Shown in pieces: positions 1-63,914 of a DNA stretch of 64,000 nt. This DNA comes from Macrocystis pyrifera (Eukaryota; Sar; Phaeophyceae; Laminariales; Laminariaceae). Within the stretch, counting starts at the first letter, position 1; the number at the start of each line of letters is the position of its first letter. The stretch is from assembly GCA_031763025.1 (NCBI GenBank), contig JASSKH010000006.1, forward strand, positions 15,589,479 to 15,653,478. The letters are read 5' to 3'. A program made the position numbers and the translations under genes. Below the pieces are notes generated by a model, which made no database searches, was not told the DNA's origin, and saw only the letters and a list, made by a program, of their open reading frames with translations.

Positions 1-3000
1 GCACCGTCAGCAGTCAGAGGATTGTTGCACTTTTGTTGCGACGGTGAAGCGCATGCAGTAAGCACCGTTACCGTCGCCGTCGTCTCGACTGCCGCATAAC
101 CGTCGCTGATGCAAAACCCCGGGATAGGCAGACATCTGCCTGAATCGGTGGGTTCGCTGCGCGCTGGCGACATAAATGTAGAACGTATATTATTATATGA
201 AAGAGGGAGTTTGGCCGGCAGGAGCCGGGAGGGAAGGTGGAGACCGCAGGAGGGACTCTGAAAGCGTTTTGGCAGAATTTGCCTGGACTGCTGAAGCACC
301 ACGCCCGCAGGTGGTGGATGGAGGGGACGTTGCGCCCGAGGAAGGAGTCGAGGGTGAAGATGGGCGCAGGGGGAGGAGTCTGCATCATCATCTGTTCGGG
401 ATGCGGTGCCCCAAGAGAGAGGAGGAAAGAGAAGGGATCGAGGCGCCACCGGCAAGGACTTACGTCCGCACCAGGCACGTTTGGCTTGCTTGGTTGATTG
501 ACTGCTGTGGTGACTACCGTTTTTAGAATCATTGTGTTTAAGAACGGTAGAGAATCTGCGAACATTGGAGATTCGGATTTATTTGGGAATACGAACTGGA
601 AATTAAATGAGATGCACAGACGTACACGTATACAGTATACGTATACGTATACGTATAGCTTCCCTCACTGAAGTTTTTCTGTAGACGCACTGCTGTAGGA
701 CTATGACGTCTGTCTGTTTTATGGTTGACTGGTCGAGGGCTCTGGTTGAGCATCGACACGAGTACAGCAGGAAGAGGTGTATGTGATGAACCCTTGTGCC
801 CAACTACAGCAACACGTCTGTTTGCGGCATTTCACATATTTACATCTTTGTATGCGGGTATCTCGTTTTTGAGTTGTTGGGTTGGTGTGTAGCACGACCC
901 GCGCCACTTGTTACGTGCTAAAGACAAGATATTTGCGGACGGAGTAATATACTATACGAGTACAGCAGCAGCAGAAGTAGTACGGTACTGTGAGCTGAGA
1001 CGAAAACGGTTTACTTGGCACTGCTGTATATGTTCATCAAGTATGTACTACAGCATATAGAGTGGTCGAGGAATACATGGGTTTGATGTGGGACCAGATA
1101 TTCTCGTTGACAAGTAGCTACCTAGTTGCAGTAGCATTTGAAAAGTTAACTATACCAAAGAGGAGTTTGCAAGCAGTGCATACGCAGATCTAATCGCTCG
1201 AATGCACGCCCCATCCCTTCTGTATGCCGGGTCAATGCTGCGGAGGCGACGTTTAATTTCACCCAGGAGGAATAGCTGGATGACCCGAGCTGCGGTGACA
1301 CCATGAGACCGAACGGAGAGGCAGCCGCGGCGGGGGCAACAGCAATAGTGTTCGGGGCATCGGGGTGATTCTTACTGAATGCGGTTGCCTGTGAATCTGG
1401 ATGAATATTTTCATTGCTTGTATTTTGGAATTGTTTTTTCTGGACGATTTGGATCCCGCGAGAGTTTTAGGTGTTTTCGAGTAGTCCCAACGTCAACTAA
1501 AATTCAAGTGAAGGAATGTATGCTATCTCGCATTACCGTCGCGATCTGTGTATCTATGGCGGGAGTAGGGGACAAGGGGAGACTCTTGTCCGGGGGAACG
1601 GGGTTCCTTGCGATCTCTGGCATTTATTTTCTTGGCTTAATTTTTATTTTGATGAGTATGGCTACTATGATGTTTTTCCATGATTTTCATTAACTTCCTA
1701 TAAATTTGAGGGAGTGGTTTTTGACGATACTAAAGAGAGACTATGAAGCGCCTGGGGGCGTGTGCGGTCCATATGAAATGTTTTCTGATTTGGAAGGTTT
1801 GGGTAGTATTTCGGAAATTGAGAGTTTGATTTTTTTGGTTGTTGAAAATTTGTGCTTTTGTTCAAAGTCAGTACTGACTAAGTGGTCTAGCAGGTAGTGC
1901 TATATAATTCCCTAGGGTGGGTCGGGAGTTGAAGTCTCGCCGAATTCGTAAGTTGATCTTTTCGAGCGTGCGCGCTGGAGACAATACGAATGATTATGAT
2001 AGTGTGCCTGTAGACACCAGTAGCGTTTGGCGAGGGGAGAGCCCCGGAGATCACTGTACGAAGTTGACGAGATCCCACTGTATATCTTTGGACCAATTCC
2101 GCGAAAAATGCCGTTTTACCTGACCGAATCCGAGAAGAATGCCGTTTTACCTGGCATTGGATTTTGAGAGTTTTATGTGTTTGTAACAGAGAGGCTGGGG
2201 ATTTGAGCATTTGAATACTGATTTGAGGATTTGAGTGTTGATTCAAGAAATTGATTTTTGAGTTTCAGATTGGATTTTTGACTTTCGGAGTTTGATTCGA
2301 GTTGATATTTTTATTGAGATATATCAGCCCTGCGATGTCACACATTTTCATGTACAGAGCTGAGGGGAATATTGATCATGCACAGGAGCAGGGGGGATAT
2401 GAGTATGGTCGTGTATATTGAGTAGGGGGGATGTTGATTGTACTCAGATGCACGACATATAAGATCCATGGTAGATTGGGGAGTTCCACGCTGGGAAGAG
2501 ATTCCGGCAGTAGGGTATTGGGATATCGGGGTAATGTGTGCCCACCAATGCCACTCGTCAGGTGCAACCCTACACTGCATGTGAGGCGAGTCAACTCTAC
2601 AGCGAGGATGTAATATAAGAGGAGTTATGTTTCGTGTCTGGAGTTAGCCACGCGTTCCCGTGCCAGCTGCGCCTATACCTTTAGGGATCAATAAACAGTT
2701 CGTTTTTTTTCTTTTTGACCGGTGGAGCGGGCAAGCAGTAAACGCAACTCGTGAGTCACGTTTAAAAAATCAACTAAGGGGACGATAAGTAACTATCCCC
2801 TTGTACCCGCGTCGTCCAACCCCATACAAACATCCAAACCGTTGGATACTCCGGTCAGCAAGTCAGGGGATCTTACGTACCGAACACATGCCAAGGCTGA
2901 GCCTGACACGGCCACGAACCACGGCTAAGCAAGATACGAAAGCAAAATCGCTCGCAGTAGCCTTTGTCCTTTTGTGGTCAGTCTAAAGCGCTAGATTCGA

Positions 3001-3330
3001 GCGGCTACCTCGGCACGAGCAGCGAGAAGCCTAACAATAACAACACAGCAGTCCAGGTGGAAGCATGCCTTCAAAAAAGAGGTGGGTGCAGATGTGCAGA
3101 TGGTGTAGACTGCTGTAGACCGACCTACTGTTGTATCTATTGCTGTCGCTCGTGACTCTTGACCAGAGGGTTTGGCTGTTGATTCACAGCAGTTTTTTTC
3201 CTTGTGTCGAATGTGTCCCAGTTTTTTTCCTTGTGTCGAATGTGTCCCTATTTGGTTGGTCGGATCTGCACGTCAGCTGTGAGTTCAACCGATCGGTCGA
3301 TACTCAACTTTCTGCACACCCCCCGGACAG
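1..3330. other. No gene recognised
   Basis: The longest open frames are 165 codons on the minus strand (68-565) and 104 codons on the plus strand (1379-1693). The first is Pro/Ser-rich with no familiar motif, and the second has one hydrophobic stretch near its C-terminus. Neither has supporting features, so I do not call them genes. A short stretch at 3269-3311 resembles the dispersed module seen at 6.2-7.9 kb. Confidence 0.5.
622..655. repeat. TATACG-type microsatellite
   Basis: Consecutive GTATAC/TATACG units form a short self-complementary microsatellite. Confidence 0.8.
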
Positions 3331-3332
3331 CT

Positions 3333-3590
3333 CATGAGCTAGCTCATCTATTGTGCATAGCTCACGCTTCGAAAACATGTGCAGATGAGCTACCGCCTAT
3401 AGCTCAAGCCGGGGGAAACATATGTAGCTCATGTAGCTCCTATAGCTCATCTCGGGCGCAGATGAGCTACTGTAACTCATGTAGCTCCTATAGCTCAGGC
3501 TGGGAAAGTGTGTGTAGATGAGCTATCTTCTGTAGCTCAAGCCTTCAAAACATGTGCAGATGAACTACCACCTATAGCTCAAGCCTTCCA
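3333..3590. repeat. AGCTCA/TGAGCT-rich tandem array
   Basis: Degenerate units of roughly 50-60 bp recur. Each has an ACATGTGCAGATGAGCTAC-like part followed by CTATAGCTCAAGCC. AGCTCA and its complement TGAGCT recur many times, so the array is highly self-complementary. It ends exactly where the helicase-like coding similarity begins, so it may mark a rearrangement breakpoint. Confidence 0.75.
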
Positions 3591-5393
3591 AACATCGACG
3601 CCGCCGACAGAGCTGGGCTAAAGCTGGACGGGCTCCCTCGAGGTGTCATCGGCTGCGGTCCGGTTTACAGGAAGTTCTCCATCGTTGGTAAAGGCAAGCG
3701 GAAATTCACCATCAACAGAATGCAGGTACCTCTGTCTCTTGGTATTGTTTCCTCAGTCTATCGAGCACAAGGCGAAACCATCCCTAAACTTGTGCTCGAC
3801 ATTCGTAAGCCAGTAGGCGGCTATATGGACAGCGCGGCTGTCTACGTCGCTCCGTCCCGAGCGACCGATGCCAGCAATCTCTTCTTGCTGTCGCTGGTTA
3901 CTCTCGACGATCTGACCCATCCACAGGACGATGTAGCGGCTATGATCGACTACCTCGAACGCCTCGACAAGGCTACAATAGCCTTGTTCATGGATGATCC
4001 CTCTACATTCCGACCGGCCACGACAAGTCCTCCGGCTAGTTATACATCCCACACCAACGACGGACAAACAGACACCAGCTCCATCCGCCCTTCACCTTTT
4101 CTGCCGCCCAATGAGAACAACAATTGCTTCTTCAACGCCGCCATAGCTGCTTGGGAAGGACACCCTCTCCCCAACCCAACCATGGCAACACCAGCTGGAG
4201 CCATCTTCTTCTTCTCCACTCTTGCGGCTGTGCGTGCCTGCATGTTCGACGGCAAGCCTCTCCAACGCACCCTCTTGGTAAGTTCTTGCTTGTTCTGTTA
4301 TCCACATCTCGTCGCAATAATACCCCCGGCGCCCGCAAGTACCCATATATATATAAATACTACGTTGTGCTTTCATGTGTCTTCCAAACGTATTGTATCA
4401 TTTCGTTCGGTATGCGTCGCATTCTTTGGCGAAATGCAGGATTCTTTGTCTCTAGCACGTGACAAGATCCTTGGTAGTAGCGGCCTACCGGGCGCAGGAT
4501 CCGTAATGGGAACGCCAGGCTCCATATACGAAGCGATCACCCTTCGACCTGATGATCAACTCCACCCCAACAGCGGGTGGCCAGGTGACGTCGTGGAACG
4601 ACATGCTCGTATCATGTACACTCGGACGGCTCTCGGATTCAACTCGCACTACACTAACGATTGCCTTATCGAAGACCATGGCCATATCGAGATAACCGCA
4701 TCCCAATGTGCACGATGGCGAGATCCCGCACCAGTCTTGATTCCGCACGGACCGCCCCAGTCACTCCAGGATGCAGTCAATGCCTTGTTCCTAACCGGAG
4801 CCGCCTCCGACTTCTCATTTCCTGGACCTGCTCCGTGCCCCCCCTGCGACGAGAGCTGCGCCAGGCACATCAGCACATCCACATGGTCGATTCTTCCTTG
4901 GAGTGCGGACAACGCCCCAGATCGCGTTTTCTTCGCGTCTGCACGTGTAGACATCTACGAGGACGCCGGAGAGCCGCCAGCACCGTCACCCATTTTCATG
5001 ATAATCGTTGAGTACTGCGTCGTAGCTGTCATCTACTCCCTTCCGAACCATTTCGTGACCCAGTTGCGTTCGAGAGGGCGGCGGTTGAAGTACGATTGCA
5101 TACTCGGGGGGAGTACCACGTCTTGCGACGATTTTGACTATGACTGGTATCATGGTTTCCAGCAGATGTATGTCTACCTTCGAAAGTCTATGACCTTGCC
5201 TGTTCCCCGGACACAAACGACACCATACCGTAGTGCTAGCTACCATGAGCGCGCAAGCCAAGAACGCACGAAGATAATCGAGGCGACTAGACAAGGACCC
5301 ATCATGCCTCCGCCTTACCGACGTCCTGGCCACTACGACGTGGGGAGCGCAGCTGTGCCTTGCCGACTCGACTCCGACGTACCGCTGCCTTGA
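3564..5393 (+). pseudogene. PIF1/Helitron-like helicase C-terminus fused to USP (C19)-like peptidase, 5'-truncated
   Basis: The frame is open from a stop at 3561 to the stop at 5393; the first Met is at 3720. Similarity starts near 3594 and carries the C-terminal helicase motifs of the PIF1/RecD-like superfamily: QVPLSLG, YRAQGET (residues 14-20 from Met) and YVAPSRAT (42-49). About 85 residues later comes NENNNCFFNAAIAAW, with the candidate nucleophile Cys136. This fits the Cys box of C19 ubiquitin peptidases better than the OTU box. A CPPCDESC cysteine cluster follows. Near residue 443, IYSLPNHFVTQL fits the His box, and QMYVYLRKS fits the last strand of the fold. The ATPase motifs and any Rep domain are missing, so this is a 3' fragment of a larger gene. 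Some Helitron-type transposons and PIF1 relatives carry cysteine-protease domains, so a mobile-element origin is likely but unproven. A candidate in-frame intron interrupts it. No partner gene lies nearby. Confidence 0.65.
4278..4439 (+). other. Candidate phase-0 spliceosomal intron
   Basis: GTAAGT follows codon 186 of the helicase-USP frame, and an AG at 4438-4439 gives a 162-nt intron that keeps the frame. The enclosed translation is hydrophobic and unlike the flanking protein. The interval is also open in frame, so retention is possible. A more pyrimidine-rich acceptor at 4455 gives 178 nt and runs into a stop. Confidence 0.4.
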
Positions 5394-6250
5394 GCGTCCC
5401 ACGTGTTCTTCACATGTGTGTTGAAATGTTTTGATTTTTGATGCGATACTGCTTCTCGATTAGGACTGCCTGCCTTCTTGTTTCTCCCTTTTTGCGAGAA
5501 CGCATTTTGCAGAAATGTTGCACGGCGCGTCCAGCCTTTCGAGTTCATGCTACATTTATATTAACTGTTCGGTCGACAGAATGTTGTTTACGGGGTGCAT
5601 GTACGTGACGATCATCGGCGAAAAGTCTACTTGTATGCCTTTTGTCATCTTGGACTTCACGGCAGCGTTTTATTTGGTGTGGGTGTGTTCGCGACACGTC
5701 GAGGTCATCCCAATCTGCGCGATGCGACTGTGGCGTTTAGTTTATGTTTTTTTCTTCGAAATAGCGGCAACAGCAGCATCTTCAAACAAGTAATATTCTA
5801 CGTGGCAAATATCGACGTCGCGAGAGAATTGTCATACCGCCAGCCAACGTTTTGTTATATGGTAAAACCCTAGGGAACAGCGGGGCAACCCTTGCCCTGC
5901 CCTACAATCAGTATTACAAAAACACAACTTTTTTAGTTACAGACAGACGAAGCCTTTACCAATCGCTGTACGAAAAAAAAATCCTATCGGCGAAAACTCG
6001 CTCCCTCGTTTTTGGCTCTTGGCGCCAATTTAATTTAATTGCCGGCTCCAGGTAATACCGTGGGCGTGCGGCCGTTTTTTTTTTTTTTGTTGGTGTTTAA
6101 GTTAGAGATGGACGTTGTTCGTGCTAGCGCGAGATGAGCTTCACCTTACGCGACAAAAGTGCCGCATCGTGATCCCCGACCCCGACTGTGTCGGGGCGGC
6201 CTCGGGCGTGCTTGCACCGTGCTCTGGCTGCCGGCTGGCCGGGTGTGAGT
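5394..6250. other. No gene recognised
   Basis: Only short overlapping open frames of up to 92 codons occur, without recognisable motifs. A T-rich run lies at about 6075-6089. Confidence 0.5.
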
Positions 6251-23605: not shown

Positions 23606-26600
23606 ATAGCTTCGGCCTGCTTCGTCCTTGGGGTGGGCCGAGGACGTCCGCCATGACCTGCAACGGTCTAGCGACAGTCACACGAGCATCGAGCCTCGGG
23701 CTGGACGGAGGGTAAGCCTCGCACGGTCCGGCTGGTGGCCTGTTCACTCTAAGGACCGCGTGGGTTCTCAACTCCGACGCCAAGGAGTTCATCCCTTAGG
23801 CGGGACGGGTACATCACCACAGCAGAGAGCGTTACGTGGGCAGCTGAGGAAGTGGAGAGGCTGGCCACAGCGTGGGTATGCATGCACGATAGGAAGGATG
23901 GGAGTGTTGGCAATGGCTGGGACGGCTGCACCCAGACAATAGAAACCAAGGCACGTACCGGTCTACGAAACGGAGAACCATATTCGTCACAGAGAAGAAA
24001 AACAAGCAAAATAAGCAAAAAAGCAGGCGTGGACGAGCTTCACGTCGGCCGGCAAAGGAAACAGCACGTGAGGCTCGTAAGAGACATAATGAGGCACTTG
24101 TGGCGGTAGCGACCTACAACGTGCGTTTCCTGGCTGTAAAGGGGAATAACGGGTACGGACTTGACGAGCGTGTATTGGCAAAGGGACGGCAACTCGGTTG
24201 TGACTTCGTTGGCCTGTAGGGAGCTCGGAGATCCGGCAGCACGACGCTCCGTGCGGCAGGGTATCGCGTTTTCTGTTCAGGTCAAGAAAAAACAGATGCC
24301 AGGCAAGGGTTGCACGGAGTAAGTCTAACTGTCAAGGAGTCGTTGTGCAGTGAGTCTGTGTACACTCACCAGTTCATGGACGAACGGCTTACATCTATGC
24401 GCTTCGAGCTGGCTAGCAAATGCGCGGCAGTTAACTTCTAAGTTGCGTATGCTCCAACCGGTAGTACCAAGGATGCCGAACTGAAATGTATTTTCTGGTA
24501 GAAGCTGAAGGACTCGGTGGAAACGATCCCGACGAAAGAGTGCCTGTTTGTACTCATGGATGCCATTGCACGAACTGGACAGAGGATGAAAGGATGCGGT
24601 GATGATGGAAGTAGATTGCTTGGAACATATGGACGTGATGTTCGTAACGATAGAGGTAAATGACCCATTTCGTTCGCCACCAATTGCAAGTTTGCTCTCA
24701 CCAACATGTTGTTCAGCACGCGCAAGGGTGGGATATCGCATACGCACAACGGGACCAGTCCGAATGACTGTAAGCGGATCGATGACAGCCTAACCCGTCA
24801 AGCCCATCGACCTGAAGTACAAGATGTTCAAGTCGTCCCACACCCTTCTGCCCCAGCTAAGGCTGACTCAGACCAGAACATCTTGCATATCAAAGGCCGA
24901 CTTAGTGGTCACTATACGCCCAACAGACAAACACGGAAACCCCGAAAACACCGAGAATTCGACAGGCAACCTAATGACCGATAAATAGTGTCGTGAACGA
25001 GAGGCAGCGAGGGTCGTTTCCACTCTCAACCATCTTATCCAGCCCCGTAATACGTCTGGCATGCTTGAGTATTTTACAGCGGCTATTATTGATGCTGTAG
25101 AAAAAGAGGTGGCACCCGTCCACGTCGCCACCGCAGACATAAATGGCGTGAGTCTGCCGACACCTTGGCCGCATTCATGCTGACACGGACAGCGAGGGAA
25201 GATGCGCGACAATTCTTGCGTGCCCACCCCCGGGATAGAACCGCGTGGAAGATTTTGATATCTGCGTGTCGAACCTGCAGAAGGTGATTGCCGCAGGACT
25301 GAATGCGTACTTGGAAGAGTACCTCGCCGAAACCGAACGACTGCTAGCGGATAACGACCAGAGGGGATTCTACAAGCACCTTAAGAGTACGGTGGGATCG
25401 GATGGGACTAAAGCGAGGATCGAGCAGTTCCTCAGGGACGAGGATGGCATGCTGTTGCGGGATAAGGTTTGACTTCGTCAACGATGGTCGGGGCTTTACC
25501 ACAAACTCTTGAACCCGAAATCGCTGAAACTCGACCTCACAATCATCGACCTTTTGCCAGCGCGATCGCTTAAGCTATCGCTCGGAGATGAATCATCCAT
25601 GGACGATATGACGGGAGTACTTGAGGGGAAATCAACTTGGAAAGTTGTTGGGCAAGATGGTCTCCCGGCCGAACTCCTAAACCTCGATCACCCCGCATTC
25701 GCCCATTGCTTTCACAACAGCTTTGTCAAAATATGGGTAACACGAGAAGTCCCCCAGCAATGGAAAGATGCGATCATCAAAGTCCTTACAAAAAGAAGGA
25801 CCACACTGATTGCAAAAACTACAGAAATGTTTCGTTTGTTGCCCACGCAGGCAAAGGTTTGTTAAAAATCGTCGCGTCCCGCCTCAGCAACTACTGCGAG
25901 ATCGCGGGATTACTCCCGGAAGAACAGTGCGGCTTGGCTTCCGCCCCGCACGATCAACGATTGTATGTTGTTCGTCTTGCGGCGGGTGCAAGAGCTCGGA
26001 CGACAGAGGAAAATCCTTCTGTACGTGTGCTTTATAGATCTGCAGGAAGCTTACGACGCAGTCGACTGTGAGCTGCTATGGGAGGTACTCACACGCGTTG
26101 GAGTACTGATCAAGATACTGACAATTATCCGCAATTTCCACGAACCCATGTGGACTCGCGTGCGTACGGATGACGGCGATCACTCGGAATGGTTTTTGAT
26201 GTCAGGCAGGGGCTGCGTCAAGGCTGCGAGCTATCACTGTTATTATTCAACGTGTTCTTCTGCTGCGCTACATGTCGTACTAGTAAGAGTACGCTTCAGC
26301 CAAGACAAAGCCATCGTAAGGGATTTGGTTCAACTCGGTGATGCTGGAGTAGTCGGAACTCAGGAGCAGGAGCCGTTGGTGTGCGTGCGAAGGGCTGTGT
26401 AGGGCATGTTGTACGCCGATGACGCAGGAATTATCTCGACGTCGGCTGAGGGGCTTGCGAAAAAGATGACAGCCTTCGAACCAGCAGGCCTCACGGTATC
26501 GGAAAAGAAGACAGAGACAATGCTTCTACGAACACCAGACCAGGCATCCCTCACACCACCGCTCGTCATCGAAGCAGCAGGCCAGAGATATAAGCAGGTG

Positions 26601-28000
26601 GCCCAGTTCTTATATCTGGGCGTTGTGTTTCACGAAATTGCTGATCTCTCGCTCGAAATCGGCGGACGGATCCGTCTCATGCGGGCATGCCTCAAACGGT
26701 TCGGCCCGAAGTTGTACGATAGGATGACCGCCCCATTTATCCTGAAAGTCCCATTGCTGAAGGCCGAGGTGATTGAGACCCTGCTGTACGGGTGTGACGT
26801 GGACCCTCAGAACGGAACACTTTGCCAAGCTTCGGATGGCTCACCAACCAGTATTTTGGCCAGTCATTCCAGCGCCGACTTCGTACTGACCACGCCAGCC
26901 TGTCGTACACGAGGGCCTTCAACATGACACGTTGCGGGAGCATCGAAACGACCATCCGCAAACAGCGGCTCTTCTTTGCGGGGGCCGTAAGCAAGGAGCG
27001 ATTACCCAGTCGGGTAACGTTGGGAACAATGGCTGGTGGGGAGAACCCGAGACCTGGCGGACAGTTTAAGACTTGGCATAGATGCACAGTCGAAGACCTT
27101 AGGGAGTTCCGAGCCACCGAAGGGTCAGCGGAATAGGCCCCCTTAGTGTTTGGAGCTGAGACCGCACTGTGGTCCACTGCCGCAAAAACGGATGGGAAGT
27201 GGTATCGGGGGATCCTCAAAGGCGCCGAACGGTTCATGGCGAGGTAGAACGAGCATGAGGCACAGCTGAGTAGGCAGCGCCGCGCATCCGCCGTATGTGG
27301 TGTTCAATGGAATGGGGGGAGGGGGAGTAACAGGAGGAGTGGAAAGAAACCCGATCAAGGGAATGTGGGGAGGGGGGGGGGCACGAGGAGTAGAAGGGAA
27401 ACCGCGGTGGACGAAAGTAGGAAGGAGATAGCAGACAGGGAAGCAAGGCACTAGGCCGACTAGGAAGCAGAACATGCGTATGTTACTATGCTATTCGTGC
27501 GGCCAACTGATGGTGCAGCTTGTACGAACGTGGTCTTCGATGGTCTTGTTTTTTTTTTGTTTTGTTTTGCGCTTGATCCTGTGAATTTTATTTTATTTCT
27601 TTCTCTTTCTTTCTTGATGTGACAATCCTTACGAAACGAGTATTGTGGCGTGGGTGGATGACGAGCCTGCTTTGCTTGTTTCGTAGCGTCTGACGCCGAG
27701 GGGCGGGGCATAGTTGACGAACACGGGACGGAGGCGGCAGACAGGGGAGCAAGGTCCCAAGCGAATCAGTAGGGAGAACCTGGCTATGCTATTCATACCA
27801 CAAACTGCTGCCACAGCCTGGAGGGTACTTTGTGCTTCGGTTTGCCTGTTATTTTCCCTTGCCAGTTGGTTATTAGTCTCAATCTATTTAAAAGAGGGTG
27901 GTGTTGTATTTTTCTTCAACGCTCTTTGGTTTCAAGTGAGAACTTGTATCTCTCTATTAATAGGTTTGAATAATCGGCACGGACACTGATTGTGCTGGCT
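23606..28000 (+). mobile_element. LINE retrotransposon copy 2, degenerate, with long 3' UTR
   Basis: The presumed 5' UTR (23606-24030) precedes EEP and RT coding remnants (24030-27454). The 3' UTR follows, with T-rich tracts and the conserved CGTCTGACGCCGAGGGGC block near 27689. A deleted form of the terminal tail, CGGCACGGACACTGATTGTG, lies near 27977. The element boundaries are inferred from other copies. Confidence 0.75.
24030..27454 (+). pseudogene. LINE EEP endonuclease-reverse transcriptase, many stops and frameshifts
   Basis: EEP remnants start with VATYNVRFLAVKGNNG near 24113. In-frame stops appear at the QETRR position (24219) and near 24440 and 24500. ECLFVLMDA and a degraded KADSDQN region follow. 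RT motif A (FIDLQEAYDAVD) lies near 26030. Motif B is scrambled (near 26205), and motif C (YADDAGII) at about 26412 directly follows a stop. The C-terminal RLFFAGAV and PGGQFKTW segments are present. It is the same family as the copy at 60 kb, and the number of lesions marks it as older and inactive. Confidence 0.85.
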
Positions 28001-28449: not shown

Positions 28450-28745
28450 CGTGACGGGACGGGACGCGACAGATTTGACTCGTTTGGCGGGAAAGATGAA
28501 TGAAAACGGGACGGGACGGGACGGTAAATTGAGGCCATAAAAAGTTGGCGGGATGGGACGGGACGGGACAGCGGGTGCCAAATTTCTCGACGGGACGGGA
28601 CGGTAAATATTTTCCCCCTCGGCGGGACTGGACGGTCAATATTTTTTTCCTCGGCGGGCCGGGACGGTAAATATTGTTTTCCTCGGCGGGACGGGACGGT
28701 AATTTTCTTTTTCTTCGGCGGGGCGGGACGGTAAATATATATTTT
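28450..28745. repeat. Left subterminal GGGACGGGACGG array
   Basis: About seven units of CGGCGGGACGGGACGGTAA alternate with AATATTTTT-type spacers, period about 40 bp. Confidence 0.85.
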
Positions 28746-30269: not shown

Positions 30270-32880
30270 TCTGGAACTTTGTACACCTCGACATCCAGCA
30301 CAACCAGTGTCTGTGCGGAATCTTCAATCTTAAGAGACTACTGTTGTTGGTTGTTTATTTCACATTAAACCGTTCTTTCTACACGTCGACATCAAGCACA
30401 ACCTGTGTCCGTTCCGATTCTTCAATCCTAGAGAGATACAAATTATGTGGTCACAAAGCTACGCCACAGAGATACACTACGTTGATACGTGTGCAATGCA
30501 ATGCCATGCCATCATACTGCGTACAACAGGTATACGACATACATTCCATAACCTAGAGAAACGAAACGAAACAAAGAGAAAATACAAAAACAAAAACGAA
30601 GACAATTCGAAAGAGAAAAAGAAACAAGAGAAAAGAAACAAATATATACCTGGTATATATATAACAAACAAACCATCGTGCCCCCCCCGCACGGGTTTGG
30701 CAGACACTTGAAAAGAACGAGCTGGAGAAAAAAAAAGGAAAAAGAAAAAAATATCACTAGTCGTCAACAGAGTAAGACTAAGAACCAAGGGAAAAATAAC
30801 AGGCAAACCAAACAAAGCACAAAGCATCCTCCAGGTAGCGGCAGCAGTTTATAGTACGAGTAGCACAGCCAGGGTCTCCCTGCTTGTCCGCCTGGTACCT
30901 TGCTACCCTGTCTGCCACCTTCGTCCAGCGGTCGTCAACTATGCCCGGCCCCTCGGCGTCAGACAATACGAAACAAGTAAAGCAGGCTCGTCATCCACCC
31001 ACGCCACACGACTCCTCCAATAAGGCTCATCAATCGGAGAAAGGAAGAGAAAAAAAAATATGATGAAAATCACATAGGGTCAGCGCAAAAAGAAGAAAAT
31101 AAAAAGAAACAAGAAAAAAAAAACAAAAACAACAGCAAGACAAAGGGAGATCACGTTCGAAACAGCTGCACCAGTTGGTGGCACGAGTAGTATAGGCATG
31201 CTCTGCTTCTTAGTCTGCCCGGTACCTGGCTACCCTGTCTGCCATCTCCTTCCTACTTTCGTCCACTGCAGTTTCAATTCTACTCCTGTTCCCCCCCCTC
31301 TCCGCATTCCCTTGGTCGGGTTTTCTGCTAGTCCTCTTGTTGCCCCTCCTCCCCCGATTCCCTTGGGCACCACCCACGGCGGATGCGCGGCGCTGCCTAC
31401 TCGGCTCAGCCTCAGCCTCGTGCCACCTCACCATGAACCGTTCGGCTGCTTCGAGGATCCCCCGGTACCACTTCCCCGCCTTTTTTGCAGCAGTGGGCCA
31501 CAGCGCGGTCTCAACTCCAAACACCAAGGGAGCAAGTTCCGTTGACCCTTCGGTGGCTCGAAACTCCCTAAGGTCTTCGACTATGCATCTATGTCAAGTC
31601 TTAACCCGTCCGCCAGGTCTCGGGTTCTCCCCACCAGCCATCGTCCCGAACATTACCCGACTGGGTAATCGATCCTTGCTTTGCCGTACCACCCCCCCCC
31701 GCGAAGAAGAGACGCCGCTTGCGGATGGTCGTTTCGATGCTCTCGCAACGTGTCATCTTGAGGGCCTTCGCGTACGAGAGGGTGGTACGGTCAGTACGAA
31801 GTCGGCGCTGGAAGCCAATGACTCGCAACAGGACTTGGTGGTGAGCCGTCCGAAGCTTGGCAAAGTGTTCCGCTCTGAGGGTCCACGTCACACACCCGTA
31901 GAGCAGGGTCTCAATCACCTCGGCCTTCAGCATTCGGACTTTCAGGCTTAGGGGGGCGGTCGTCCTATCATACAGCTCCGGGTCGAACCGTTTGAGGCAT
32001 GCTCGCATGAGACGGACCCGTCGGTCGTTTTCGAGCGAGAGGTCAGCATTTTCGTGGATATCGCCGCCTAGGTACAAGAACTGGGCCGTCTGCTTATACC
32101 TCTGGCCTGCTGCTTCGATGACGAGCGGTGGTGCGAGGGTTTTCTGGTCTGGCGTTTGCAGAAGCATAGTCTCTGTCTTCTTTTCCGACACCGTAAGGCC
32201 TGCTGCTTCGAAGACAGTCACGATGACTGTCATCATTTTCGCGAGCCCTTCAGCCGACTTCGAGACAATCCCTGCGTCATCGGCGTACAACATGCCCCAT
32301 ACAGCCCTTCGCTCGCACGCCACGGCTCCTGCTCCTTCGTTCCGACTACTCCAGCATCACTGAGTTGGACCAAATCCCTTACGATGGCTTCGTCATGGCT
32401 AAAGCGTACTAGTACGACGTACAACGCAGCAGCGAAAAATACGTTGAACAGTAACGGTGACAGCACACAGCCTTGCCGCAATCCCTGCGTGACATCAAAC
32501 CATTCCGAGTGCTCGCCGTCATCCGTTCGCACGCGAGCCCGCATGCCATCGTGGAAATTACGGATAATTCTCAGCATCTTGGTTGGTACGCCAAAACGTG
32601 TGAGTACTTCCCATAACAGCTCTCGGTCGACAGAGTCGTACGCTTTCTGCAGATCGATGAAGCACAAGTACAGGGGGATTTTCCTCTGTCTTCCAAGCTC
32701 TTGCAACCGGCGCACGACGAACAACATCTCCGGGCGACAGTTTAAGCGGTCGTGGTGGCAAGAGGTCGATGATCGTGGAATCGAGTTTAAGCGATTTCGT
32801 GTTCAAACGTTTGTGGTAAAACCTCCCCCACCGTTCACGAATTCGCACCTTATGTGGCCCAGCAAGGCTGCTGCGCCGCG
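30270..32880 (-). mobile_element. LINE copy 3, 5'-truncated, with full 3' UTR
   Basis: Coding similarity runs from 32850 down to 31210. The 3' UTR follows (31200-30760 and the terminal tail 30720-30345). The tail ends ACGGTTTAATGTGAA next to an AAC-like tract. A second partial tail (about 30275-30335) lies beyond the tract. The 5' end is cut inside the RT region at IRERW. Confidence 0.85.
31210..32850 (-). pseudogene. LINE reverse transcriptase fragment with internal deletion
   Basis: The fragment starts at [14 protein letters not shown]. Compared with the copy at 60 kb, about 370 nt are missing between the LKLSPGD and [11 protein letters not shown] segments (near 32740), with ATG microhomology at the junction. 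RT motif A ([12 protein letters not shown]), motif B ([14 protein letters not shown]) and motif C ([12 protein letters not shown]) all remain but lie in two frames. The C-terminal domain with RLFFAGG and the terminus EMADRVARYRAD follow. It cannot be active, since it lacks the endonuclease. Confidence 0.9.
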
Positions 32881-40331: not shown

Positions 40332-41521
40332 ACTTTCAAATGAAGGTAAGTACAAATATTACCATCCATCTACGAAAAACGATCAAAATTACACTGCAGT
40401 ACCAAGTAGTGTAAGTGTGTATACCTGGTGGTGTTGTTTTTTTTTTTTCTTTTCTGTTTCATTTTTTTCAAATGAATCTTCATACTTCATCGCAACTGAA
40501 GGCAGTGTATCATAACACAACACCTGCCACAGGCTCGCCCCCACACACAAACAGCACAGAGATTACTCAACTCACAGTCACACCAGTACTGGTGTGGCCC
40601 AAACAAATGTCAGGAGACAAGTCATCAAGCGGGACGCAAAACGTGCGCTGCCATGGATGTAGGGCCGAGTGTTACACATTAAAACCTAGTAGTTTGGTGT
40701 CAGTCAAAGCATGTCAATGCAAAGTTGCTGTCTGTCAAGGGGTGAAAGTGCTGTCTCCTGACATCTTTGGTGTGACCGGCACGGACGCCATGAATGCCTA
40801 TCTTATTGGCGGGGTCGATCGACCAGCAGCGGCACTAGAATCACCATTGCCGCCGCCACCACCTCCTCCAGCTCCACAACCACCAGTAGCACAGCGCAAG
40901 CACACCCATCAGAATAACCACCCCATGAGCTGGTAACGCAACAACAGTGCTTAAGGGCAGGAGTGGAAGAAATCAGAAGACGTCGCCCGCGTAATGGCAG
41001 CACTTCTCGGGGCTTGGGCTGCGCGGATCGAGAAAAAAACTTCGGTTTCGGGACGGCTCCCTTAGCGGAACCAACAGTGTGAGGGAAAGTTTTCACGTAC
41101 AACCGCGACCTTGCGGCGGGAAAGAAGATAAATATATTTACCGTCCCGCCCCGCCGAAGGAAAAAAAAATTACCCTCCCGTCCCGCCGTGGAAAAAAATA
41201 TTTACCGTCCCGTCCCGCCGAGGAAAAAAAAATTACCGTCCCGTCCCGCCGAGGAAAAAAATATTTACCGTCCCGTCCCGTCGAGGGGAAAAAAAAAATT
41301 ACCGTCCTGTCCCGTCGTGAAAATCAGCCCCGTTGACTTTTACCGTGCCGTCCTGTCGAGAAATTTATCACCCGCTGTCCCGTCCCGCCAACGTTTTACG
41401 TCCTCATTTTACAGTCTCGTCCCGTCCCGTCCCGTTTTCCTTTCTTTTTTCCCGCCAAACGAGTCAAATCTGTCCCGTCCCGTCATGATTCTCAGTCACT
41501 ACAGTCTGATATAAGCCTTGC
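40332..41521. mobile_element. Truncated copy of the GGGACGGGACGG hAT-like element
   Basis: This is the reverse complement of about 28424-29560. The right end GTGACTGAGAATC..CAAGGCTTAT (read on the minus strand) lies at 41521, and the CCGTCCCGTCCCGCCGAGG array at 41120-41480. The left third is missing. A plus-strand frame (40415-40936) includes CQCKVAVCQGVKVLSPDIFG and a proline run; I do not recognise it. Confidence 0.8.
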
Positions 41522-55920: not shown

Positions 55921-55951
<31 letters not shown>

Positions 55952-60114: not shown

Positions 60115-60389
60115 AAACAGAGTGAGACTAAGAACCAAGGGAAAATAACAGGCAAACCCAAGCACAAGGAACGCTCCAGGTAGCGGCAGCAGGTTATGGT
60201 ATGAGTAGCATAGGTAGCCAGATTCTCCCTACTAGTCCGTGTTAGGACCTTGCTACCCTGTCTGCCGTCTCCGTCCTGCGTTCGTCACTTGTTGCCCCCT
60301 CGGCCTCAGACAATACGAAACAAGCAAAGTAGGCTCGTCATCCACCCACGCCACACGACTCCATATCAATAGAAGAAAGAAAGAAAGAA
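60115..60389 (-). mobile_element. LINE 3' UTR fragment upstream of LINE copy 1
   Basis: It contains GAGTGAGACTAAGAACCAAG and CAGACAATACGAAACAAGC, diverged more than the other tails. LINE copy 1 begins immediately beside it in the opposite sense. Confidence 0.75.
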
Positions 60390-63300
60390 ATGAGAATCAC
60401 AGAGGATAAGGCGCGAAAAAAAAGAATACTGATACTCAGGCTACCTAACCCAAAAAGGAGGAGGGGACGAGCCTCTCGTCGGCTGGCAAAAAAAGCAGCA
60501 CGCGAGGCTCGTAAGAGGCGGAAGGCGGCACTTGTGGTGGTAGCGACCTACAATGTGCGTACCCTGGCCGTAAAGGGGAAGAACGGGTACGGGCATGACG
60601 AGTGCGTGCTTGCGAAAGGACGGCAACTCGGTTGTGACTTCATTGGTCTGCAGGAAACCCGACGGTCCGGCAACACGAGATTTCGTGCAGCTGGATACCA
60701 AGTTTTTGGTTCAGGTCAGGAAAAAACAGCAGCGAGACAAGGGTTGTATGGGGTAGGTTTAGCAGTAAAATACTCAATATGCCGTACGTCTAAGTTCACT
60801 CAGCAGTTTATTGACGAACGACTTATGTCTATGCGCTTTGAGTTGGACGGTCGGTGCGATGCGGTTAATTTTGTCGTTGCGTCCGCCCCAACTGATTGTA
60901 CCAAAGACTCCAAGCAGAAAGGCATGTTCTGGCGAAAGTTGGACGACCTGGTTGAGCAGATTCCTGCTAAAGAGTGTTTGTTGTGCTTATAGATGCCAAT
61001 GGGCGAACTGGGGGGAGGATAGAAGGGTGCGGTGATGATGAATGTAGGGTGCTCGGAGCATACGGACGAGATGTTCGTAGTGATAACGGCAAACGGCTTT
61101 TGTCGTTCGCTACCAGTTGCAAGCTAGCGCTCACCAACACATTTTTCAGCACGCGCAAGGGCGGAATATCGCATACATACAACGGCACCAGCCTGAATGA
61201 TCGTAAGCGAATCGACTACATCCTAACTCGTCAAGTCCACCGACCTAGAGTACATAATGTTACAGTCGTCCCACAGCCCCCATCGCCTGCTAAGGCTGAT
61301 TCAGACCATAACATCGTGTACATCAAGGCCCGACTTAATGGTCACTATTCGTCTAACCGAAGATTGCTGAAACCCCCAAAACGCCGAGAATTTGACAGGC
61401 AGCTTTTATTATCCGATGGAGAGCGTCGACACCGAATAGTCGAGAGGGTCGTTTCCGCTCTTAACCAACCTACTCAGCCTCGTAACACGTCTGGCATGGT
61501 TGAGTTTTTCACCACAACTGTCATGAATGCTGTTGAGAAAGAGGTGCCACCTCCACCACGTCGCCACCACCGAAACGGTTGGTGTGAGACCCCCGAAACG
61601 GTGGCCGCTTTCAAAGTAGCATGGACAGCGAGGGAGGATGCGAGACAGCTCTTGCGTGTCTACCCCCGAGATAGTACAGCGTGGAAGAAGTTGAGATCCG
61701 CCTGTGCGAATCTGCAGGAAGTGGTCGCCGCAGGAGTCAAGGCGTAGTTTGAAGAGTACCTCGCTGAAACCGAGAAATTCCTCGCGAGTTCCGATCAACG
61801 AGGGTTCTACAAGCACCTGAAGAGTACGGTAGGGTTGCAAGGTACGAAAGCGAGGAGTGAACAGTTTATCATGGACGAGGATGGCACGCTGTTGCGGGAT
61901 CAAGCGCGAATTCGTGAAAGATGGGCGGGGCACTACCACAAACTATTGAACACGAAATCGCTGAAACTTGACCCCACGATCATCGACCTAGTGCCACCAC
62001 GACCGCTGAAACTATCCCTTGGAAATGAACCATCCATTGACGAGATGATGGAAGCAGTGAAGGGTATGTCAAACTGGAAAGCCGTTGGACCAGATGGTCT
62101 CCCGGTCGAAGTACTGAAACTTGACCACCCCGCTTTCGTGCAGTATTTTGACAGTATCCTTGTTAACGTTTGGGTAACGGGAGAAGCCCCTCAGCAATGG
62201 AAACATGCGATCATAAAAACCCTTCATAAAAAGAAGGATAGAACTGATTGCAAAAACTACAGAGGTATTTCGCTTGTTGCTCACGCAGGCAAGGTGTTGC
62301 TGAAAATCGTTGCGTCCCGTCTAAGCAGCTACTGCGAGACCGAGCATATACTCCCTGAAGAACAGTGCGGCTTCCGCCCCGCACGGTCGACAGTCGATAT
62401 GCTGTTTGTCGTGCGCCGGTTGCAGCAGCTCGGGCGGCAGACGAAAATCCCCCTGTACATGTGCTTCATCGACTTGCAGAAAGCGTACGACTCTGTCGAC
62501 CGAGAACTGTTGTGGGAGGTACTCACACGCCTTGGTGTACCAACCAAGATGCTCACAATCATTCGCAAGTTTCACGAAGGCATGCGGGCTCGCGTGCGTG
62601 CGGATGACGGTGAACACTCGGACTGGTTCAATGTAACCCAGGGGCTGCGGCAAGGCTGCGTACTATCGCCGTTACTGTTCAACATGTTTTTCGCCGCTGC
62701 GATACACATCGTGCTGGTACGCCTCAGCAAAGACGAATGCATCGTAAGGGATTTGGTTCATCTCGAAGAGGACAGGGTTGTCGGAAAAGAGGGACCGTTG
62801 GCATGCGTGCAAAGGGCGGTGTGGGGCATGTTGTATGCAGACGACGCAGGAATAGTCTCGAAGTCGGCGGAAGGCCTTGCAAGAATGATGACAGTCATCG
62901 TGACTGTCTTCGAAGCAGTAGGTCTCACGGTATCCGAGAAGAAGACAGAGACGATGCTCCTACGAACACCGGATCAGACGTTTACCACCTCACCGCTCGC
63001 GATCGAAGCTGCAGGCCAAAAGTATAAAACAGACGACCCAGTTTTTGTACCTAGGAGGCATTGTCCACGAGAACGCTGACCTCTCCTTCGAAATCGCGCG
63101 ACGAATTCGTCTGATGCGGGCATGCCTCAAACGGTATGGTCCGGAACTGTACGATAGGACGAACGCACCGCTTAGTCTGAAAGTCCGGATGCTGAAGGCC
63201 GAGGTGATTGAGACCTTGCTGTACGGTTGCGTGACGTGGACCCTCAATGCGGACCACTTCGCCAAGCTTCGATCAGCCCACCACGAAGTCCTTCTGCGAG

Positions 63301-63914
63301 TCATTGGTTTCCAGCGCCGACTACGCACCGACCACACCACCCTCTCGTATGCGAAGGCGCTCAGGATAACACGATGCGAAAGTATCGAAACGACCATCCG
63401 TAAACGGCGACTCTTCTTTGCGGGGGCTGTGGTGCGGCAACACGAGGGGCGATTGCCCAGTCGGTTGATGTTCGGGACGATCGCTGGTGGGGGGAGCCCG
63501 AAACCAGGCGGGCAGCCCAAGACTTGGCCTAGGGCCATTGCTGAGGACCTTAGAGTGTTCAAAGCCACCGAGGGATCAACGGAAGACTCCCCCTTAGTCT
63601 TTGGAGTTGGGACCGCACTGTGGCCCACTGCAGCAAAACAGACGGGGAAGTGGTACCGGGGAATCCTCGAAGCAGCTGAACAGTTCATGGGCAGGTGGCA
63701 CGAGGCTGAGGCAAAGCTGAGTAGACAGCGCCGTGCATCCGCTGCAGGTAGTGTTAGAGGGAATTGGGGGAGGGGTAACAGCAGGAGGGGTAGAAAGAAC
63801 ACCGTACAAGTGTATGGGGGCAGGGGGGGGAACAGGAGGAGTAAAAGGGAAACCGCGGTAGAAGAGAGTAGCAGAGAGATCGCAGATAGAGTAGCAAGGT
63901 ACCAGGCCGACTAA
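60390..63914 (+). pseudogene. LINE EEP endonuclease-reverse transcriptase, three visible lesions
   Basis: A basic N-terminus (RRGRASRRLAKKAAREARKR) precedes the EEP endonuclease: YNVRTLAVKG, FIGLQETRRSG, LIDANGRTGG, RIDYILTRQ and KADSDHNIVY, so the catalytic Asn, Glu, Asp and His motifs are present. The RT has [14 protein letters not shown], motif [18 protein letters not shown], motif [15 protein letters not shown], motif [13 protein letters not shown] and motif [10 protein letters not shown]. The C-terminal domain carries RLFFAGAVV, PGGQPKTWPRAIAEDL and a basic Gly/Arg tail ending DRVARYQAD. No RNase H is seen. Lesions judged against copies 2 and 3 are one missing base near 60980, a TAG at 61745-61747, and one extra A near 63029. 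No separate ORF1 protein is evident. The product would nick target DNA and reverse-transcribe LINE RNA. Confidence 0.9.

Follow-up and report, generated by a model that had tools for sequence, protein, structure and literature searches.

The kelp locus

The window analyzed in this study is a stretch of 64,000 nucleotides from the brown alga Macrocystis pyrifera (assembly GCA_031763025.1, contig JASSKH010000006.1, forward-strand positions 15,589,479 to 15,653,478), and at 2698–5908 of its plus strand it holds part of one copy of a repeated element. This part corresponds to 979–4189 of the 4,190-bp reference unit of the family (L019, 5226–9415), with 94.1% identity in blastn. The 5′ part of the same copy is situated upstream of the window, where L050 166–1139 corresponds to unit 13–987, and the two halves are separated by an LTR element with two 266-bp LTRs that are 95.9% alike and with GTTCG on both flanks, the second LTR being window 2432–2697. 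Window 1–2697 represents most of this 3.29-kb LTR element, which splits the Helitron2-type copy with a 5-bp duplication (GTTCG) and has no long pol-like frame, its longest frame being 284 codons on the minus strand. The first dozen or so 5′-terminal bases of the repeated element are unrecognizable in the window copy as well as in L009 and L010, two copies that have their upstream flank in common with it. A tandem array of approximately 42–48 bp units (3340–3595) had been taken in a preliminary description for the point of 5′ truncation; the array instead lies inside the element and is common to other copies, as is the sequence upstream of it from 2698 onward (~94%).

Several further features were noticed in the window. 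Three related frames resembling the endonuclease and reverse transcriptase of non-LTR retrotransposons, with a YADD motif, were recognized by eye at 60333–63911, 25473–26924, and 31604–32802. Two distant arrays (28586–28738 and 41130–41314) have a similar 32-bp unit (CGGCGGGACGGGACGGTAA...) on opposite strands, and a short telomere-like run of CCCTAA lies internally to the contig at 55921–55951.

Coding sequence and its intron

The coding part of the element appears in the window as an open frame of 609 codons and a stop (3564–5393, plus strand), along which the motifs VYRAQGET, YVAPSRAT, NNNCFFNAAI, and YSLPNHFVTQL follow one another. All of these, the two helicase motifs, the Cys box and the His box, are thus present in the order in which the preliminary description had reported them. 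It had also regarded the frame as a single open one, and here only the frame itself is real: it is not one exon, and it runs through an intron since the 162 bp of the latter are a multiple of three. This phase-0 intron (4278–4439, plus strand) reads GTAAGT...TGCAG. Within the open frame exon 1 spans 3564–4277 and contains a PIF1/Helitron helicase C-terminus (~3699–3893), a linker, and the Cys box, and the true coding start may be located elsewhere; exon 2 (4440–5393) encodes the remainder of a protease-like domain, a C-terminal tail, and the stop. The putative catalytic Cys is encoded at 4125–4127, the putative catalytic His with its adjoining Phe at 5049–5054, and the putative catalytic Asp at 5094–5096. 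In the spliced protein the His-Phe pair, which lies inside EYCVVAVIYSLPNHFVTQL, is 254 residues C-terminal to the Cys, and the Asp is 15 residues C-terminal to the His.

The intron was compared in 23 aligned rows that represent 22 distinct copies; the row L021_0 duplicates L022_0 and was left out of the counts of fixed differences and residue conservation. Its length ranges from 162 to 186 bp among the rows and is not a multiple of three in 9 of the 22 distinct copies. The donor begins with GT in 21 of 23 rows (the exceptions are both rows of L017) and the acceptor is CAG in all rows except L024 (22/23). The same site and phase are found in a divergent relative on contig C141, where the intron has 177 bp. 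When spliced at the aligned borders, six of the 22 distinct copies (the window copy, L011, L015, L017_0, L026_1, and L027) are open to the natural stop over 555–559 codons. The residues between LQRTLL and DSLSL, which had originally been read as protein, are therefore most likely absent from it, as they are encoded by this GT-AG intron of varying length.

Copies, ends, and insertion

The whole M. pyrifera assembly (537,376,219 bases in 223 contigs) was searched for relatives. The helicase part has at least 150 matches (150 of 448 candidates were scored) and exon 2 at least 151 (150 of 1,047 candidates scored), and 20 stretches of 10 kb were fetched, selected from the helicase-part matches. The unit is approximately 4.2 kb in most of these stretches; several copies are partial or internally deleted, for example L020.

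The 5′ end of the element is TTCCCTAGGGTTTACCC, as (A)TTCCCTAGGGTTTACCCTAGGG, and forms a hairpin in all eight examples folded, in a shifted position in L017. The 3′ end consists of GGTAAAACCCTAGGGAA followed by a hairpin and CTACAAT, and this hairpin is found in seven of seven folded examples, being shorter in L019. The 5′ end recurs in reverse complement as the 3′ repeat, and the placement of the two is asymmetric, terminal at 5′ and subterminal at 3′. On the plus strand of the window the 3′ repeat occupies 5861–5877, the hairpin with a predicted 9-bp stem 5880–5900, and the terminus CTACAAT, placed by alignment of 3′ ends, 5902–5908. In L023 and L025 both repeats have TTCCCTAGGT in place of TTCCCTAGGG, as if the two ends of the element changed together; L022 departs from this pattern, since its 5′ end has GGT and its 3′ end GGG.

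One nested insertion (L026/L049), where one copy has entered an older one at its 3′ end, gives the state of the target. The flanks join as CAACCTTGTATTAT/AAGGTAACACC, and in comparison with the uninterrupted L023 the joined flanks of L026 differ at two bases and carry no target-site duplication. The flanks of the copies indicate a T/A-rich target, and the exact terminal base cannot be fixed because a T stands on either side. An asymmetric inverted repeat, two hairpins, and insertion without duplication in this one case fit the Helitron2/Helentron group, and the conserved copy ends for which the preliminary description had proposed to look are present.

A helicase C-terminus joined to a protease-like domain

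The assignment of the first part of the protein to PIF1/Helitron-type helicases, already made from the letters of the window, is upheld by a sequence search of the PDB, in which solved PIF1 helicases match residues 46–110 of the frame with E 0.0017. The alignment to solved PIF1 displays the C-terminal SF1B motifs of PIF1/Helitron helicases (R-x-Q-x-P-L, Q-G-x-T, and Y-V-A-L-S-R). The Pfam profile UvrD_C_2 was hit at E 0.03–0.05, short of the Pfam cut-off (E 0.051 for the exon-1 piece). The helicase and the protease parts occur together in all 20 stretches fetched, which were picked from the helicase matches given above, so that the contrary case of two parts always forming separate genes does not apply to the copies read. 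The protein thus joins a Helitron-type helicase C-terminus to a protease-like domain behind it, across a conserved intron.

The fusion of a cysteine-protease-like domain behind the helicase, as first proposed, is supported by the protease half, which accompanies the helicase half in every one of the 20 stretches. The Cys, the His, the Phe after it, and the Asp are invariant among the 22 copies and the Asn residues at Cys-2 and Cys+3 are kept in 21 of 22 each, a conservation that is weak evidence by itself because the copies are young. With relaxed patterns, the order of Peptidase C19 is found: Cys box, His box, Asp/Asn, and an aromatic residue after the His; the H-x-G loop before G-H-Y, which is part of the USP pattern, is missing. 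When the 324-residue protease region of the sister copy L011 was shuffled, one of 200,000 shuffles had a His...Asp motif placed after a USP-like Cys motif under relaxed patterns, a figure of descriptive value only, as these PROSITE patterns had been loosened once the sequence was known. In most deubiquitinase families an aromatic residue stands directly after the catalytic His (PMC7391069), and the Phe of the window family agrees with this.

Profile searches gave no protease family in Pfam, nor in NCBIfam for the read-through protein. The Pfam profile UCH (Peptidase C19/USP) has no match to E 1, nor to E 10 within the filters of HMMER, which discard most matches above ~E 0.1. The only weak Pfam hits of the protease half were DUF1970 (E 0.14) and Cytochrom_C (E 0.28, whole protein, one of five copies). 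Sequence searches of the PDB returned no protease, the His-box piece giving seven matches up to E 10 and none of them a protease, and no relatives were found in viral contigs. The structure prediction suggested in the preliminary description was run with AlphaFold on a single sequence without alignment (window 4101–5393); its mean pLDDT of 31.8 lends no support to a USP fold and speaks for the fold neither way. The earlier C19-type assignment stays tentative: it is favored by the order of the motifs, by the distance from His to Asp, and by the aromatic neighbor of the His, but there is no profile match and the model has low pLDDT. As neither profiles nor PDB sequences match and the model is of this quality, we call the domain C19-like in motif order and not a member of C19. 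Judged from its motifs, its most probable identity is that of a deubiquitinase, or else of an enzyme cleaving a ubiquitin-like modifier that ends in Gly-Gly, and we infer for it a papain-like fold, enzymatic activity, and a substrate of that kind.

It is also conceivable, if unlikely, that the element is of the Helitron2 type and the domain belongs to another papain-like class, a strongly diverged OTU or VTD, and not to USP/C19. OTU domains have an acidic residue before the Cys and VTD domains a D-x-H pair; these features are not visible in the translations, and OTU and VTD profiles are not matched either. USPs are matched by the Asp 15 residues downstream of the His and by the succession Y-x-L/V-V-A, H-F, D. 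On the other side, the Cys box NCFFNAAI also resembles the OTU box. The C19 profile remains unmatched as well, and both OTU and VTD domains are described on Helentrons (PMC9741609, PMC4067079).

Longer relatives and the source of Rep

Longer relatives had been predicted to exist elsewhere in the genome, and this is the case. L023, L024, and L025 contain extra helicase sequence upstream, their 5′ parts being non-coding repeats as judged by eye, and a 108-residue piece of the extra helicase has at least 147 matches in the genome (from 150 scored among 235 candidates), a number in which single copies can be represented by more than one fragment. The profiles PF14214 (Helitron_like_N) and PF05970 (PIF1) have 63 and 82 genome matches, respectively. 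The proposed search for longer copies with a Rep domain had a divided outcome: no PF14214 match falls inside the 20 fetched stretches, but the divergent C141 locus has a Rep upstream. On the plus strand of C141, a Rep match (503614–504078, 62.7 bits) is followed by a PIF1 match (509101–509559, 46.4 bits), the helicase piece (510209–510523, 82%), and 596 bases read directly (510860–511455), in which the linker leads to the Cys box FLPPNSNNNCFFNAAIAAALAAW and then to the intron. The order is therefore Rep, PIF1 core, helicase C-terminus, and Cys box with intron. The starts of Rep and PIF1 are 5.5 kb apart, compared with ~1.9–2.7 kb in other pairs of the genome, and because of this distance they could belong to two elements; we infer that they may form one single RepHel gene. 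At a second locus, C218, a PIF1 match (9406645–9406869, 35.7 bits) lies upstream of the helicase piece (9407581–9407905, 71–73%).

These loci bear on the quite improbable alternative that a Helitron2 with a different RepHel carries the helicase-protease gene as a passenger, the Rep of C141 and perhaps its PIF1 coming from a neighboring element. The 0/63 Rep matches in the fetched stretches and the 5.5-kb spacing at C141 would be expected from such a passenger, yet the carried part is itself the end of a Helitron-type helicase, at C141 it follows a PIF1 core encoded by the same strand, and C218 likewise has a PIF1 match shortly before the helicase piece.

The copy at C200:14042, which has a Rep 6.7 kb upstream, was considered as a parent element and rejected: it is an ordinary short copy (96% to the unit, with an internal deletion), and Rep and copy may be neighbors by chance. 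At C192:7093821, C209:1840734, and C200:20354305, single frames of 1,439–1,646 codons combine Rep with PIF1 and represent further Helitron families of the genome. A 77-residue helicase fragment occurs with identical score on the small contigs C4, C5, C19, C22, C32, C38, C60, C98, and others, as if in a repeated array.

Selection on the protein

Codon-position counts over all copies, which include changes from decay after insertion, are weak, and comparisons between subfamilies and with C141 were used instead. In the all-copy counts a third-position excess is absent from the Cys-box part, which speaks against the protease. Against C141, six family copies differ with dN 0.29–0.32 and dS 0.99–1.09, and by 34–40, 31–35, and 65–68 differences at the three codon positions, over 134–138 codons that run from the linker through the Cys box into the beginning of exon 2; the six comparisons all share the one C141 sequence and are thus not independent. 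The divergent C141 locus shows purifying selection, with dN/dS of ~0.3. Between two subfamilies (3 vs 19 copies) 31 exon differences are fixed, a small number, with 9, 4, and 18 at the three codon positions. Of these 17 are synonymous and 14 nonsynonymous (p 0.0004 against 75% nonsynonymous), with 8 synonymous and 4 nonsynonymous in protease exon 2 and 5 and 8 in the helicase. Both subfamilies are truncated and their split may predate or postdate truncation, so that selection on short copies for their own protein and descent from selected parents are not separable.

It is very doubtful that the part behind the helicase is an unrelated C-terminal domain and no protease, its boxes being chance or structural residues. 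Such a reading has in its favor that no database search backs a protease; it has to account for a motif pair that arose in order only once in the shuffles (with the relaxed patterns), for the four residues kept in every copy, and for a Cys box retained at C141 at ~62% overall identity under the constraint just given.

Explanation and meaning

Taken together, we consider it likely that the window holds a non-autonomous copy derived from a Helitron2-type element whose parent RepHel carries a papain-like cysteine protease with USP-like motif order, most likely a deubiquitinase. The parent protein would be a RepHel in which the HUH Rep nicks one strand and the PIF1-type helicase peels that strand off. 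The terminal hairpins and the asymmetric inverted repeat would serve as start and stop marks of the rolling circle, and the element would enter an A/T site without duplication. A deubiquitinase in cis could then shield the transposition complex from ubiquitin-dependent removal. This role in transposition is proposed by analogy: similar protection has been suggested for VTD domains (PMC9741609), and the OTU and Ulp1 domains of Ginger have been proposed to involve the ubiquitin pathway (PMC2836005). The large natural set of copies is material on which a limit set by ubiquitin on transposition could be tested.

One might go further and regard the short copies as deubiquitinase-carrying satellites and not as plain deletion debris. 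Their spliced protein of helicase C-terminus and protease would dock on RepHel via the helicase part and shield it from ubiquitin-dependent removal, and the short form would be selected and outgrow its parent, which we hold to be rather far-fetched. As for the window copy, it is probably not active today, and that it makes a working enzyme at present is scarcely credible: its spliced frame of 555 codons has no premature stop, but it alone among 22 copies lacks 12 bp directly behind the Cys box, the helicase in the frame is the C-terminal part only, and the element is interrupted by the LTR element.

Comparison with known systems

In Helitron2 the 5′ ATIR by the 5′ end forms a hairpin, the 3′ ATIR is located 20–30 bp from the 3′ end just before the 3′ hairpin, and the element begins with a 5′ T (PMC3627910). 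The kelp element is Helitron2-like in ATIR placement, hairpins, and 5′ T, and unlike it Helitron2 is described in the main text of PMC3627910 without a protease or peptidase. Its likeness to Helentrons and the related DINE-1/HINE elements lies in a presumed RepHel parent, similar ends, a T-rich target, and non-autonomous copies that outnumber full ones (PMC4067079). Helentrons carry an AP endonuclease, and some of them an OTU-like cysteine protease (PMC4067079); the window protein P0001 has no Pfam match up to E 1. HINEs are described as lacking coding capacity (PMC4067079), whereas 6 of the 22 distinct kelp copies have a spliced frame of 555–559 codons.

Among brown algae, 13 Helitron families make up 1.10% of the Ectocarpus genome (PMC12477816); the available text of that report mentions no protease on Helitrons, and the word occurs once, where the legend of a figure spells out an abbreviation (aspartic protease). 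The Helitrons of Pleurotus ostreatus have RepHel genes with introns and captured domains as in the kelp, and the study states that, unlike there, it detected no cysteine protease in them (PMC4289320).

In the open-licence PMC literature, as far as its text was available, we found no C19-like domain on a Helitron, while OTU and VTD occur there and C19 on another transposon. A parallel would be the zebrafish Helentrons DrT1 and DrT2, which have a VTD deubiquitinase of shown activity in the Helitron reading frame (PMC9741609). The kelp domain, assigned by motif only, differs from this herpes-tegument-like class, and the existence of VTD corrects the view in the preliminary description that the known proteases of Helitrons are OTU-like. 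A Trichomonas vaginalis protein with Transposase_11 and Peptidase C19 (PMC2836005) provides C19 on a transposase, although not on a Helitron. Deubiquitinase-type proteases have thus been joined repeatedly to unrelated mobile elements, OTU and VTD to Helentrons, Ulp1 and OTU to Ginger, and C19 to a transposase, and a further, separately built case from a brown alga, in which the domain adjoins the end of the helicase, would add weight to the idea of ubiquitin-dependent turnover as a limit on transposition.
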